DNA from: Aliiroseovarius sp. Z3 | GTDB lineage: Bacteria; Pseudomonadota; Alphaproteobacteria; Rhodobacterales; Rhodobacteraceae | Assembly (NCBI RefSeq): GCF_029105185.1 | Contig: NZ_JAFMZK010000006.1 | Span: 1-64,000 of the forward strand | DNA length: 64,000 bases | Direction of reading: 5' to 3' | Shown here: positions 34,417 through 40,245 of the stretch, one piece after another | Layout: each line of letters begins with the position of its first letter | Position numbering within the stretch: the stretch's first letter is position 1 | Notes under the pieces: model-generated | What the model saw: the letters and a program-made list of their open reading frames with translations, nothing else | Told to the model about the DNA's origin: nothing | The model's database searches: none | Position numbers and translations under genes: made by a program

Positions 34417-34890
34417 TCAGGCTGAGGGTGCCGGGACCTCTAGCATCTTGCAGATCGCCCCATCCGCCGACCTGTAGGTGCGGAACCCCATCGCCTCGTA
34501 ATAAGCCAGACCTTCGGCGTTCGTGGAACCGATGGTCGCGTCAATATTCTTGATGCCCGCATTCTGTGCCGCCGTGAGCGTTGCAGCGAATAGGGCTTTC
34601 CCGACACCTCGGCGGGCCGCACTGGGTTTGACATGCGTGCCAATAATGCCCCAACCGGGCGTCACGTCGTAGATATTGCCTTGCACTGCACGCGACAGGG
34701 CCTGCATCCCAAGGATCGTGCCATCGTCGTCCACGGCAACGCTGCATTGAATGCCATCGGGATTGTTGACGTAGCAATCACGAACAAACGTTTCCTCCCA
34801 TGGTCTTTTTCGTTTCCCACGATCCACCAATTCCTTAAGGAATGCGCTGATTTCTGCCGCGTCTTCTGTTGTCGCCTGTCGGGTCTTCAT
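34417..34890 (-). CDS. GNAT-family N-acetyltransferase
   Basis: A 157-aa acetyltransferase with the GNAT fold. The acetyl-CoA motif A is VKPSAARRGVGKALFAAT (about 92-109), followed by NIDATIGSTNAEGLAYYEAMGFRTY. A strong AGGAGG precedes the start. It lies 28 bases downstream of the reductive dehalogenase on the same strand and may be the third gene of that operon, but its acceptor substrate cannot be inferred. It converges with the histidine kinase. Confidence 0.87.
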   Translation of the reverse strand: MKTRQATTEDAAEISAFLKELVDRGKRKRPWEETFVRDCYVNNPDGIQCSVAVDDDGTILGMQALSRAVQGNIYDVTPGWGIIGTHVKPSAARRGVGKALFAATLTAAQNAGIKNIDATIGSTNAEGLAYYEAMGFRTYRSADGAICKMLEVPAPSA

Positions 34891-34918
34891 AACCTGACCT
34901 CCTGTGATTTTCGTTTTG

Positions 34919-37900
34919 CTAAAGGTCGATCTCGATCTCGCCGTCCGGGTCAGCGGCCCTGCTTTGGCATAAGATCATGCTTTCGCTGCGCTGGGCGTTG
35001 GACAAAACGAAGTCGCGGTGTTCGACATCGCCCGCGATAACGCCGCATTTGCAGACGCCACAGATACCGTCCGAGCATTTGACATCGACATGTATGCCCG
35101 CAGCGTTCAGGGCATCTGCCGCGGTTTCGTCATCGGCCACCACAATCCGTCGCCCATTTTTGAGCTTAAGGGTGAACGGGTGATTTTCGTAGTCGGGCTG
35201 TTCAGGTGGACTGAAGTATTCCAGATGGCGCGCGGCTTCCGGGATCCCCTGCCGTTCTGCAGCCTCCATCACCGCCGACATGTAGCGGTCGCCCCCACAG
35301 CAATAGACATGGGTGCCATCGGGTGGGTTCAACAAGATCGCATCGAAGTCGGCCCGCGTATCTTCATCCGAGAAATGAAAATGCACACGGTCTGACCATG
35401 GCATCGCGGCAAGATCGTCCAGAAATCCGGCATCTGCCCGTCGACTGGCCGAGTAATGCAGCACGAAATCCGCGCCGATGGCGTGCAGGCGGTGGGCAAA
35501 AGCGATCATCGGTGTCACGCCTATCCCGCCGCCCATCAGGAATGTCTTGGTGGCGCTTTCGTTCAGTTCAAAGTGGTTGATTGGCTTGGCGACAAAGACC
35601 TTTCGCCCCTCGGAAAATATCCGATGAAGCAAAGCCGACCCGCCGCGCCCTTCTGGTTCACGCAATACGCCGATCTGATAGGTCATACGGTCCGCCGGAT
35701 CACCGGACAGAGAGTATTGGCGCAGAAAATCGGGCGACACCAACACATCCAGATGTGCGCCCGCTGTCCATTGGGGAAGCGGCGCGCCATTGAGGGAAGA
35801 CAGCTCGTATTTTGTCACGCTTTCGGTCATCGGTTCGACGCGGTTCACCACCAGTTGAACCACTGGCGCATCGTCAGGGACGGTATAGCGGTGGATCATG
35901 GACACGTCGCCCGTCGCCAACCGTGCGCGGTATTCGCTGGCTGGAATCATGGCCTGATAGGCCGCGATACCCGCCTCGCGATCCATCGGGAAAGGATAGG
36001 GATAGGGCGGAGGAGCGAGGGGGGCCGGATACACCGCCAGCGTCTGATCATTGTATTTCAGGTTCAGTTCACGGGTCAGCCCACGCCGATTCACCGGGTC
36101 TTCTGTCGGGTGATACCCGCCATCCGGGCCGAGTTTCAGATCCCACCACCATTTCTTCGTGTCGTTCAGCTCTCCGTTCCCGACTGCGTCATCCAGTCTG
36201 GCCAACACCGGGGCCGCACCCGGCAGGTTCGAGGCCGCCCAACGGAACGGCGCTTGCGCAAACAGACCTTCAAGGTTCCACGGGCAGGTTTTCATGCAGC
36301 GCCCACACATCGCGCCGCCGGGCTGGGTCACGCGAAAGGTGGTGCATTTCTGGCTGTCGGACTTCCATATCTCATAGCCGTTGAACATCAGCTTCGGCCC
36401 GGCCGTGATCGCGCCTGACGGACATTCCCGCGCGCATTTGTTACAGGAGTTGCAAAACCGTTGCAGACCGAAATCAATCGGCTTGTCATGGGCCATCGGC
36501 ATATCGGTCGTCACCACCCCGGATTTAAGGCGCGGGCCAAGATATGGGTTCAGGATCACCTCGCCGATCCGGCTGACCTCTCCCAATCCCGCCAGCAGCA
36601 AAAGCGGCGGCTGAAGAACGGTGCCGTCCATCACGGTATGCGCCTTGGCAGAGTAGCCAAGGTTGCGGATCTGCTGCGCAATCACGCCGCCAATCAGCGA
36701 GAACCTCAGATAGGCGCGCATGGATTGGCTGACGGCAATCCAGTCGTCGCCCGACGCGCCTTCCATCGTTTCAAAGCCCTGATCCACGATCATCGAGATC
36801 GCCTGATCATGCGCGGGCGTTATTTCGGCCCCCGTCGCGTCGTGGCTGTACCACGTCCAGTCGGGGCAACGGCTGGTGCCGACCGCGTCGATGCCAAGGA
36901 AATAGCAGGCGGCTTTCAGAGCATTGGCGTTGTCGACCAGATCGGCAGGTCGGCTGGCCGGATCCGCGATGGGCCCGTCTTGCAGTGGCGTCAGCAATCC
37001 CAATGCGCGGCGCTGGGCATAGCTGGGCGCGGCCTTACGCACATACAAGCCGCCGGATGAATGTTCTTGCAGATGTTTCCCCATATCCCCGAACTGGGCA
37101 CGGGCGAACATGTCGGCGCGTTTCGGAACGCGGGCGACGTTGGCTTCGTCAATGTAAGTGGTCGGAGTGTCCACCCGTTTCAGACGTTCGAACGGATGGG
37201 CACCCATTGCATAATCGCGCTTGGCAAAGGGATCGCGGTTCAGGGCGGATTTCGTGGTCTTCGTGCCCAGCCACCATGACGGGCCGTTGATCCGGTGCCA
37301 GGGTTGTTGTGACATAGGGGCAAGAGGTTCGTCGGGCGCGAGGGCCATTTCCGTCGTCACGGCGGCCAACCCGAACCGGGGGCCGATCCAGGGTGCAACA
37401 AGTTGTCCGTTTTCCACGGTGGCCAGCCCGCCTGCCACAGCCAGCCGATGCAAATCCACATCTGTTGCGGCCCCGGTATGCGCCTTGGCATCAAAGCCCA
37501 GAAGTCGGATGTAGTTTGCGATGACAATGGCGGTCTCGGCCCCCAACAGGCAGGCACGCTGCTTCTGTGTGTCCATGATCCAGTCGGCGCCGGGTTCGTC
37601 CGGCCTGGGGTCGCGGTGGTGTTCATACAGAAACACGATTGCATGCCGGTGGCTGCTGATCGGACGGGGCGTTGACTTAAGGCTATCGCGCAGCTCGGCC
37701 ATCAATGTGTCAATGCCAGCAGCCAGGGTGCGCACTTCGCGGTGATCCAGTGATGTGACCAGCGCCTCGATATTGGGGTTGATGATCGGCTGGCTGAGAA
37801 GATCATCCGAATTCAACTCCGAGATGCCCACCATGGACGCATCCGAGAAATAGCCAAATGCTTTCAGATGTTCACTTCGTTCCACCGGATCACCCGGGAT

Positions 37901-38125
37901 GGTTGCCCGTGCCGGGTTCACATCCCCATCGCGGATGGCATCCAATGCTGCCTGATAGGGGGCCATGGCGTTGACGATGCTGTCTGGCCTGTCCGGGCGG
38001 CTGAAACTGACAGGCGCCAATCCGGGGATATCGGACAGGTCGGGCGCGCGGCGTACCCGAAGCAAATCTTCAAGCGGGTATGGCCCCAAATGCACCGGGC
38101 GGTTCCGGGTCGAGAAAAGCCGCAT
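34919..38125 (-). CDS. self-sufficient reductive dehalogenase fused to FMN/[2Fe-2S] reductase
   Basis: A 1068-aa multidomain protein. The first ~640 residues form a cobalamin-type reductive dehalogenase: two [4Fe-4S] motifs (CNSCNKCARECP near 558-569; CGRCMKTCPWN near 605-615) close the core, with the RdhA-type segment YEIWKSDSQKCTTFR between them. Then comes a phthalate-dioxygenase-reductase-like module: FMN motif RQYSLSGDP (~800), NAD(P) motif GGGIGVTPM (~862) and plant-type [2Fe-2S] CSDGICGVC (~1017-1025). This is the architecture of catabolic NpRdhA and BhbA, which remove ortho halogens from halophenols with NADPH. No Tat signal or RdhB anchor is seen, so it should be cytoplasmic. It follows the sulfatase gene by 2 bases; a 59-codon upstream extension was rejected. 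Confidence 0.88.
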   Translation of the reverse strand: MRLFSTRNRPVHLGPYPLEDLLRVRRAPDLSDIPGLAPVSFSRPDRPDSIVNAMAPYQAALDAIRDGDVNPARATIPGDPVERSEHLKAFGYFSDASMVGISELNSDDLLSQPIINPNIEALVTSLDHREVRTLAAGIDTLMAELRDSLKSTPRPISSHRHAIVFLYEHHRDPRPDEPGADWIMDTQKQRACLLGAETAIVIANYIRLLGFDAKAHTGAATDVDLHRLAVAGGLATVENGQLVAPWIGPRFGLAAVTTEMALAPDEPLAPMSQQPWHRINGPSWWLGTKTTKSALNRDPFAKRDYAMGAHPFERLKRVDTPTTYIDEANVARVPKRADMFARAQFGDMGKHLQEHSSGGLYVRKAAPSYAQRRALGLLTPLQDGPIADPASRPADLVDNANALKAACYFLGIDAVGTSRCPDWTWYSHDATGAEITPAHDQAISMIVDQGFETMEGASGDDWIAVSQSMRAYLRFSLIGGVIAQQIRNLGYSAKAHTVMDGTVLQPPLLLLAGLGEVSRIGEVILNPYLGPRLKSGVVTTDMPMAHDKPIDFGLQRFCNSCNKCARECPSGAITAGPKLMFNGYEIWKSDSQKCTTFRVTQPGGAMCGRCMKTCPWNLEGLFAQAPFRWAASNLPGAAPVLARLDDAVGNGELNDTKKWWWDLKLGPDGGYHPTEDPVNRRGLTRELNLKYNDQTLAVYPAPLAPPPYPYPFPMDREAGIAAYQAMIPASEYRARLATGDVSMIHRYTVPDDAPVVQLVVNRVEPMTESVTKYELSSLNGAPLPQWTAGAHLDVLVSPDFLRQYSLSGDPADRMTYQIGVLREPEGRGGSALLHRIFSEGRKVFVAKPINHFELNESATKTFLMGGGIGVTPMIAFAHRLHAIGADFVLHYSASRRADAGFLDDLAAMPWSDRVHFHFSDEDTRADFDAILLNPPDGTHVYCCGGDRYMSAVMEAAERQGIPEAARHLEYFSPPEQPDYENHPFTLKLKNGRRIVVADDETAADALNAAGIHVDVKCSDGICGVCKCGVIAGDVEHRDFVLSNAQRSESMILCQSRAADPDGEIEIDL

Positions 38126-38127
38126 GG

Positions 38128-39783
38128 TCAGGCCTTGCCGACCGGCGTCGCCTTGCCGGAATAGGCGGCGAGGTATTCCTCGGGGATGTCCTCGTCTCCG
38201 AAAAGACCCAGAAGGATACCGACTTTTCCCGAGCCACCCTTGCGCCGTGTCATGATTTGCGCATCCGATACGGTGGTGCGCTGGGATTGCCGACGCGCCC
38301 AATTGTGGAGATAGGTATAGAGCGTCTTGATTACCTCGGTATGGTCGTCCGAAGCGCCAAGATCGACCAGTTCGTCAGGGTCATTTTCCAGATCAAACAG
38401 CATCGGGCGGAACCCACCCTCGGCATGCATCATCTTCCAGCGGTCGGTGACGACCATGAACAGGCGGCAATCCTTTGGATCCAGCCCCAGTCTGGTGGCT
38501 GCGCCCGAGGTGGAAAAATCATACTCGCTGATCGCATAGTCCCGCCACGCCACTTCGTGCCCGCCCAGCAGCGGCAGCAGCGAGCGGCCTTCAAGGATGT
38601 GATCCGGCACTTCGCCGCCCGCCATCTCGACAAAGGTCGCAGCTAGGTCGATCTGTTCCACCAGCCTGTTGCAAACTGTTCCGCGGGTCGTATCTGCTGT
38701 GGGTCGCGGGTCGGCGATGATCAGCGGCACCCGCACGGATGGGTCGTGGAACAAGTCCTTTTCCCCCATCCAGTGGTCCCCCAGATAATCCCCGTGATCC
38801 GATGTCAGAACGATGACGGTGTTGTCGGTCTGCCCGCTCTCATCAAGATAATCCAGAAGCCGGCCCAGCTGGTCGTCGCATTGCTTGATGAGCCCCATAT
38901 AGGCGGGGATGACGGTTTCGCGCACCTTGTCGCGGGAAAAGGCGGTGCCGATGCCACCTTCCATGTAAGCGCCATAAACCGGGTGAGGATCGCGGCGTTC
39001 GTCTTCCGACCGGACCACTGGCTTGATGTGATTGTGGCCATACATATCGTTGTAAGGCGCGGGCACGATATAGGGCCAGTGGGGCTTGATGAAACTCACA
39101 TGGGCACACCATGGGGCTTTGCCCTTCTGCGCTTCAATGAAGTCGATGGTGCGTGACGTGAGCCACGGTGTTTCGCTGTCTTGTTCACGGATGTTGGCAG
39201 GCTTGTTGGCGTGCATCATCAGAAAGCCGGACGCGATGTCGCCCTCGTCCGTCACGCCTGCATTGGCATTGTCATGCCACGGGTTATCAGACGGGTATCC
39301 TTTTGCCTTGAGGTATTCGTTGTAGGGCGAGCGTTTCTGGTCGTAGAACCCTGCCGGACCCTCGGCCCACAACCCGTCATCTCGGATCCAGACATCAAAG
39401 CCGCATTCCTCGACCCGTGCGCCGATCACGCTGTCTGGTGACAGACCCAGCCGGGCCATCCCTTCGGCATCGGCTTTCATATGGGTTTTGCCGATCAGCC
39501 AGCAGCCCATGCCCGCCTTTCGCAGATGATCGCCCATCGTCATTTCGCCGACCTTCAGCGGGAAGTTGTTGAACGACGCACCGTGCGAAGAGACATAGCG
39601 ACCGGTATAGGTGCTCATCCGGCTGGCACCACAGACGGGGGACTGGCAGTAAGCGCGATCAAATCGAACGCCCCGCGCGGCCACGCGGTCGAAGTTCGGT
39701 GTCTTCAGCGTCGGGTGTCCCGCACAGCTGAGGTAATCGAACCGCAACTGGTCATACATGATGAAAAGGATGTTTGGAGCCAT
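38128..39783 (-). CDS. sulfatase / phosphonate monoester hydrolase-type enzyme
   Basis: An alkaline-phosphatase-superfamily hydrolase of 551 aa. Metal-site D11-Q12 (MYDQLRFD), the formylglycine motif C51-G-A-S-R55 (CxAxR), GRYVSSHG after it, and SDHGDYLGDH in the second half. The C-terminal layout (FDLENDPDELVDL, then a helical LHNWARRQSQRTTV tail) recalls phosphonate monoester hydrolase/arylsulfatase enzymes. No signal peptide is present, so it is probably cytoplasmic. GGAGGAGG precedes the ATG at 39783. It is the first gene of an operon with the reductive dehalogenase, which suggests it removes a sulfate or phospho ester from a halogenated aromatic. Confidence 0.85.
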   Translation of the reverse strand: MAPNILFIMYDQLRFDYLSCAGHPTLKTPNFDRVAARGVRFDRAYCQSPVCGASRMSTYTGRYVSSHGASFNNFPLKVGEMTMGDHLRKAGMGCWLIGKTHMKADAEGMARLGLSPDSVIGARVEECGFDVWIRDDGLWAEGPAGFYDQKRSPYNEYLKAKGYPSDNPWHDNANAGVTDEGDIASGFLMMHANKPANIREQDSETPWLTSRTIDFIEAQKGKAPWCAHVSFIKPHWPYIVPAPYNDMYGHNHIKPVVRSEDERRDPHPVYGAYMEGGIGTAFSRDKVRETVIPAYMGLIKQCDDQLGRLLDYLDESGQTDNTVIVLTSDHGDYLGDHWMGEKDLFHDPSVRVPLIIADPRPTADTTRGTVCNRLVEQIDLAATFVEMAGGEVPDHILEGRSLLPLLGGHEVAWRDYAISEYDFSTSGAATRLGLDPKDCRLFMVVTDRWKMMHAEGGFRPMLFDLENDPDELVDLGASDDHTEVIKTLYTYLHNWARRQSQRTTVSDAQIMTRRKGGSGKVGILLGLFGDEDIPEEYLAAYSGKATPVGKA

Positions 39784-39915: not shown

Positions 39916-40245
39916 TCAGGTCGCCTGCTGAACCCGCTCGATATAGGCGCGAAGCTCACCTGCTTCCTGCCGGGCGTCGCGCAGACCATCCATGGCGGCG
40001 CTTAGCTCTGCTTCGGTTTGTTGCAGTTGGTTGGACATTTCCGCTTCGCGTTGTTGTAGATAGGTCATGGCCTGATCGCGGGTTTCTTCCGCTTCGTGAA
40101 GGGCTTGCGCCATCTTGTCCAGTTCATCCATTTCCGTTCCGGCGACGTGAACGAACCGATGGATCAGCCAATGGGTGAACCACCCAAGCGCGAAGGCCAC
40201 GAACAGGATAATGGCGGTGACGATGATAAACTCGGTTCTGTTCAT
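39916..40245 (-). CDS. membrane-anchored coiled-coil protein
   Basis: A 109-aa protein of unknown function. One N-terminal transmembrane helix (FIIVTAIILFVAFALGWFTHWLIH) is followed by a charged, Glu/Gln-rich segment (about 38-105) with a heptad-like pattern predicted to form a coiled coil. It lies 23 bases downstream of the OmpA-family gene on the same strand, so a role in the envelope is likely. I recognise no named family. Confidence 0.75.
   Translation of the reverse strand: MNRTEFIIVTAIILFVAFALGWFTHWLIHRFVHVAGTEMDELDKMAQALHEAEETRDQAMTYLQQREAEMSNQLQQTEAELSAAMDGLRDARQEAGELRAYIERVQQAT

Follow-up and report, generated by a model that had tools for sequence, protein, structure and literature searches.

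A SpAS2-type arylsulfatase gene adjoining a self-sufficient reductive dehalogenase gene in Aliiroseovarius: recurrent linkage and a plausible desulfation-debromination pathway

In Aliiroseovarius sp. Z3, a sulfatase gene ends two bases before the gene for a reductive dehalogenase (RdhA) that carries its own reductase. Do the two enzymes serve one pathway, and what would its substrate be? The locus lies in a 64,000-nucleotide stretch of contig NZ_JAFMZK010000006.1, called the window below. ORF calls place three genes in the same direction on the minus strand, running from 39783 to 34417. The SpAS2-type arylsulfatase gene (38128–39783, minus strand, stop included; 551 aa) is followed by the RdhA–reductase fusion gene (34919–38125, minus strand) and by a GNAT acetyltransferase gene (34417–34890, minus strand; PF00583, 42.5 bits). 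The likely RdhA start is the ATG at 38125, giving 1068 aa; the mechanical ORF list puts it at an upstream TTG, which gives 1127 aa and overlaps the sulfatase gene. The ORF coordinates bear out the gaps reported in the initial annotation (2 bp between sulfatase and RdhA, 28 bp between RdhA and GNAT) and move its lower end from 34419 to 34417.

Both the sulfatase and the RdhA gene are under purifying selection. Against three congeners dN is 0.07–0.10 and dS 0.9–1.3, which gives dN/dS values of ∼ 0.06–0.08 that are rough because dS is near 1. Since dN lies so far below dS, the two ORFs are not chance ones. Upstream of the sulfatase, a small protein (39916–40245, minus strand) gave no Pfam match; it forms part of the flank that congeners share here, and we assign it no role in the pathway. 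Promoter and terminator scans found no excess over shuffled sequence. The wider window holds core-type genes (8 of 10 further window proteins gave family matches, including SecY, YidC and a gyrase B-type protein), and the window neighbours scanned include no importer, transporter or aromatic-degradation gene.

Judged from its sequence, the dehalogenase is an ordinary self-sufficient debrominase of the BhbA/JtRdhA type. It scores 202.9 bits against the RdhA profile TIGR02486 (cut-off 160.35), and the NpRdhA core (PDB 4RAS) aligns over residues 1–109 and 158–738 (E 4e-163). The two [4Fe-4S] binding motifs (36284–36454, minus strand) are CxxCxxCxxxC at residues 558–568 and CxxCxxxC at 607–614. 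The reductase part (34922–35854, minus strand; residues ∼ 758–1068) comprises a flavin/NAD(P)H part and a [2Fe-2S] motif, CxxxxCxxC, at 1017–1025; residues 749–1060 align with phthalate dioxygenase reductase (PDB 2PIA, E 7e-49) and a Fer2 domain lies at 991–1057 (40 bits). These matches agree with the initial description of an RdhA core, two [4Fe-4S] motifs and an FMN/NAD(P)/[2Fe-2S] reductase in one chain. A PF13486 profile search of the source genome gave no match anywhere; because the controls had no match either, this profile was uninformative and TIGR02486 was used instead. By eye there is no TAT signal on the protein, the NpRdhA alignment beginning at residue 1 of both.

The catalytic residues are intact. 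F291, S422, M423, Y426, K488 and R552 of NpRdhA, named as conserved active-site residues (PMC10463259), correspond in the sequence alignment to F340, S468, M469, Y472, K534 and R598 of the window protein, 6/6 identical. These six pocket residues and the eleven cluster cysteines examined are invariant in 81/81 RdhA proteins, namely that of the window and those of 80 named loci (the best 80 of 290 relatives), so that the cobalamin-pocket Tyr and Lys on which the initial annotation had made its reading depend are present. The fused enzyme JtRdhA from Jhaorihella thermophila carries out NADPH-dependent debromination of phenols in air (PMC10463259). With NADPH it debrominates and deiodinates ortho-halophenols, and the chlorinated ones tested gave no turnover. 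Its best substrates are carboxylated bromophenols, with 2,6-dibromophenol at 6.8% of the best rate; the compounds tested were commercially available phenols, a herbicide and a flame retardant (PMC10463259).

The sulfatase matches PF00884 with 144.5 bits. Its best PDB match is 4UPL (783.8 bits), then 4UPI (610.7 bits), which we take to be SpAS1; the listed structures of phosphonate/phosphate monoester hydrolases (PMHs) reach ≤ 203 bits. 4UPL is SpAS2 (PMC12421950), to which the window sulfatase is 62% identical over 540 residues. By best match the enzyme belongs to the SpAS2 arylsulfatase clade and not to the polysaccharide sulfatases, the class that the initial annotation had set against its own reading. 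The formylglycine motif CGASR, noticed at the outset, occupies residues 51–55. C51, R55, D11, D329, H330, Q12 and K342 are invariant in 69/69 sequences, among which the third position of the Cys motif varies (A 48, S 14, P 6, G 1). By analogy with EfAS and SpAS2 (PMC12421950), D11, D329 and H330 would form the metal site and C51 would be the formylglycine site.

The same protein might instead act mainly as a PMH, or on a non-halogenated sulfate, so that its place beside RdhA would be incidental. It falls within the AS/PMH clade and matches the PehA profile with 285 bits, below the cut-off of 900. SpAS2 itself also turns over a phosphonate and a phosphate as side reactions, with kcat/KM values, quoted without units, of 4.0 x 10^2 and 5.6 (PMC12421950). 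For p-nitrophenyl sulfate the corresponding figure, likewise without units, is 2.1 x 10^5 (PMC12917725, PMC12421950), and sulfate is preferred to phosphonate ∼ 500-fold (PMC12421950). This preference, and scores of 784 and 611 bits for the best solved relatives against ≤ 203 for PMHs, speak against such a role, which we regard as very improbable.

For full activity the host must convert the motif Cys to formylglycine, an ability that does not define the family. Profile searches of the source genome found no formylglycine-generating enzyme of the PF03781 family (FGE) and no anSME over the cut-off. Three of its four PF00884 genes have a Cys-type motif (CGASR, CGPSR and CAPGR; window 38128–39783, L187 and L188). 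PF03781 is absent from 34 of the 88 SpAS2-bearing genomes among 198 genomes searched, and E. coli modifies the cysteine by machinery not identified (PMC6189696).

How regularly do the two genes occur together? Among 21 genomes of the genus, the source included, RdhA is present in 20 and the sulfatase in 19, and the sulfatase adjoins RdhA in eight, again with the source. Two further pairings are decayed: in G353 the genes lie side by side with broken frames, and G356 has an intact RdhA beside a sulfatase remnant (L152:6830-7636) that has lost ∼ 205 internal residues in frame, including those matching D329 and H330. They bring the genus pairings to nine and ten. At the seven junctions read among the eight adjacent-pair genomes, window included, the sulfatase stop lies −1 to +2 bases from the RdhA start, and this near-zero spacing indicates stop–start coupling in part of the genus. 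Nine other genomes carry one SpAS2-like sulfatase away from RdhA (66–72% identical), and in the eight linked genomes the copy beside RdhA is the only one at E ≤ 1e-100; each genome of the genus thus tends to keep one sulfatase. G346 has RdhA and no sulfatase, G352 neither gene.

The linked sulfatases of the genus form one clade in the sulfatase tree (support 100/99; the bootstrap of this tree was not fully settled), which points to a single event. The flank genes of the RdhA site are the same in the nearest Aliiroseovarius relatives. Congeners also show a full-length MttB-type methyltransferase and an NADH:flavin-family oxidoreductase beside RdhA (L154:9212-12853; 8 of 80 loci); in the window the sulfatase directly follows the flank gene, without these two genes.

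Across Rhodobacteraceae, the RdhA fusion was found in 130 of 345 genomes, each with its own genus code. A sulfatase (E ≤ 1e-150) is present in 95/130 of these versus 63/215 genomes without RdhA (odds ratio 6.5, P 2e-15); 35/130 RdhA genomes have none at this threshold among the matches listed, the best four candidates per genome being scored. The choline sulfatase control is found in 109/130 RdhA genomes versus 150/215 others (odds ratio 2.2, P 0.003). Both statistics ignore phylogeny, and because choline sulfatase co-occurs too, part of the signal reflects lineage or lifestyle.

Physical linkage also recurs. In at least six other genera a sulfatase lies ≤ 10 kb from RdhA, versus ∼ 0.75 expected for random positions in 4-Mb genomes (P 1.3e-4). 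The distances are ∼ 0.2 kb in G064, 1.6 kb in divergent orientation in G137 (whose linked sulfatase shares 79% identity with SpAS2), 2.9 kb in G251, 5.2 kb in G176, 7.8 kb in G081 and 9.7 kb in G057. The weak cases are G081, where by eye housekeeping-like genes lie between, and G057 with its wide separation. P rises to 0.007 if three such sulfatases are assumed per genome, or if the count is restricted to four of the six linkages. Choline sulfatase lies within 10 kb of RdhA in 0/71 genomes among the matches listed (nearest 13.6 kb), and the difference between the two enzymes has P 0.036. All these proximity counts are lower bounds, the matches listed covering 83 of 95 sulfatase and 71 of 109 choline-sulfatase RdhA genomes.

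When linkage is mapped as a label on the 69-sulfatase tree, seven changes are needed, at least five of them forced; without G081 and G057 there are five changes, at least three forced. These counts bear on a reading by shared ancestry, in which both genes are simply common in marine roseobacters and the genus pair goes back to a single chance joining, passed on by descent. The single genus clade fits that account, as do a co-occurrence test that ignores the tree, the weaker association of choline sulfatase, and the two changes that suffice on the tree if direct adjacency alone is the label. The separate linkages in G064, G137, G176 and G251 argue against it, and we consider it quite unlikely.

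A general sulfatase–RdhA pairing was rejected. Among the named loci (best 80 of 290 relatives; upstream flank examined up to 8 kb, < 1.7 kb in L053, L054 and L068) the sulfatase stands beside RdhA in 5/80, namely L003, L004, L013, L028 and L056. Identical sulfatases in the tree equate four of these with genus genomes and L056 with G064, so the five add no further evidence. The search for the gene pair across the family, which the initial annotation had proposed, thus gave a divided answer: general conservation fails, whereas recurrence, in 8 of 21 genus genomes and in the other genera above, holds. In a plasmid collection, a full-length RdhA relative occurs in eight records; at least two plasmids carry both RdhA and a sulfatase, those of Yoonia SS1-5 and Nitratireductor OM-1 (best 40 of 66 sulfatase records), with the genes at least 43 kb apart.

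The surroundings of the two genes differ between relatives. Some linked loci include import functions: in G251 the sulfatase and RdhA genes are separated by an ABC importer, and in G176 the two share a co-directional run with an alkylsulfatase-like metallo-beta-lactamase (PF14863), a TRAP permease (PF06808), an NMT1-like binding protein and an SDR, beside an IclR-type regulator. Besides RdhA, a TRAP transporter and an alkylsulfatase-like protein, the wider G176 cluster (L112:2605-19899) contains a P450 and three sulfatases, two of them SpAS2-like; of all these loci it is the strongest candidate for a more complete organosulfate pathway. On Marinovum algicola pMaD5 (L194:7998-12778), a SpAS2-like sulfatase is followed by what is annotated as a fused TRAP transporter and a TAXI receptor, with no RdhA in the 17 kb examined; its place beside TRAP genes fits small imported substrates. 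The GNAT gene is a variable companion, matched in 3/80 named loci (L004–L006; best 80 of 290), and in three other loci a fasciclin-like protein, identified by eye, takes its place after RdhA.

A general RdhA neighbour was likewise rejected: the commonest neighbour family occurs in 25/80 named loci, and the clusters among the matches listed are largely from Ruegeria. In many loci of that genus three subunits resembling those of molybdenum hydroxylases (CO/xanthine dehydrogenase), assigned by eye, lie downstream of RdhA (e.g. L021:11335-14929), the corresponding clusters comprising 24, 10 and 21 of the named RdhA loci. In Shimia a fumarylacetoacetase-like gene, by eye, stands beside RdhA. With such different neighbours elsewhere, RdhA is a module that serves in several settings.

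This variety bears on the possibility that the operon holds two independent salvage or detoxification enzymes, the sulfatase scavenging sulfate from miscellaneous aryl sulfates and RdhA handling free bromophenols, with their linkage due to shared regulation or island turnover. In its favour, the genes around RdhA change markedly from one relative to another. Within the genus the RdhA site may hold an intact sulfatase, a degraded one or none, and 9 of 21 genomes have a single, unlinked copy; pMaD5 shows a SpAS2-like sulfatase among TRAP genes with no RdhA nearby. That linkage and co-occurrence exceed both chance and the choline-sulfatase control tells the other way, and we judge independence somewhat unlikely.

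Joint action of the two enzymes, desulfation of an aryl sulfate followed by ortho-debromination, is plausible, and we hold the case for it to be evenly balanced. In its favour stand the gene identities and intact catalytic residues, the coupled junctions, co-occurrence and close linkage beyond both chance and the choline-sulfatase control, and the TRAP and alkylsulfatase-like genes of G176. Against it weigh the adjacency in no more than 5/80 named loci, the 35/130 RdhA genomes lacking a listed sulfatase, the decayed sulfatase next to an intact RdhA in G356, the weaker co-occurrence of choline sulfatase, and the absence of FGE, anSME and PobA matches over the cut-off in the source genome and of an importer among the window neighbours scanned. 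The pair would be translationally coupled. After import, a small aryl sulfate, with an algal brominated phenyl sulfate the likeliest, would be cleaved by a cytosolic SpAS2-type sulfatase, which sets free its phenolic hydroxyl. The RdhA-PDOR fusion, passing electrons from NADPH over FMN, [2Fe-2S] and two [4Fe-4S] clusters to cob(I)alamin, could then remove bromine (or iodine) ortho to this hydroxyl under aerobic conditions. We place desulfation before debromination because characterized relatives such as JtRdhA work on free phenols. The pathway may stop at a detoxified phenol, the gain being sulfate. Since JtRdhA favours carboxylated bromophenols over 2,6-dibromophenol, the true substrate may be something other than a plain bromophenyl sulfate. 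In the source genome PobA, the sole aromatic-degradation enzyme searched genome-wide, gave weak matches under the cut-off.

A bolder version, which we put forward tentatively and at rather less than even weight, is a dedicated, repeatedly assembled roseobacter pathway in which an importer, a cytosolic SpAS2-type sulfatase and an NADPH-driven RdhA would unmask and debrominate red-algal sulfated bromophenols such as lanosol sulfates. Lanosol-4,7-disulfate is one of the major metabolites in extract of the red alga Vertebrata lanosa, where sulfate amounts may depend on extraction (PMC9322897). If true, such a pathway would return bromide and sulfate to the sea, give the large family of aerobic RdhAs a natural-product function and make bromophenol sulfates natural substrates of SpAS2, an enzyme assayed with model substrates (PMC12421950). 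The source bacterium may then degrade sulfated bromophenols of seaweed, and the joint pathway would link bromine and organosulfate turnover in coastal water. A sulfatase recurring beside a fused aerobic RdhA points to a testable class of natural substrates, the sulfated bromophenols.

Both enzymes belong to known families; their recurrent pairing is the new element. Judged mostly from listings of the open-access literature, the pairing was not found described there; PMC6129605 reports reductive dehalogenase and sulfatase genes in one genome group, with no pairing described in the part available. Among the closest known systems is JtRdhA, compared by description; like the window enzyme it is a fused RdhA-PDOR with no TAT signal, and all active-site residues listed for it are present in the window protein (PMC10463259). 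Unlike the window locus, it has no sulfatase partner in the available text of that source, where only iron sulfate is mentioned. BhbA of Comamonas sp. 7D-2 matches the window RdhA over its full length with 50.9% identity, but its gene lies on plasmid pBHB beside genes for a transporter binding protein and a protocatechuate 4,5-dioxygenase-type enzyme, with no sulfatase in 21 kb according to an incomplete gene table. NpRdhA (PDB 4RAS, 6ZXU) has the same catalytic core and the six pocket residues but lacks the reductase domain (PMC10463259); of the two enzymes initially cited as fused, BhbA is and NpRdhA is not, JtRdhA being a further fused one. Ros_A3X954, again compared by description, is a roseobacter bromophenol debrominase without a TAT signal; it is reported to be oxygen-sensitive, and the accessible part of PMC13101508 describes two [4Fe-4S] motifs and an RdhA domain but no reductase domain. 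SpAS2 of Silicibacter pomeroyi (PDB 4UPL) resembles the window sulfatase in its type of motif and metal site, and is closer to five other sulfatases of the set (77–81%, that of G137 among them) than to the window enzyme.
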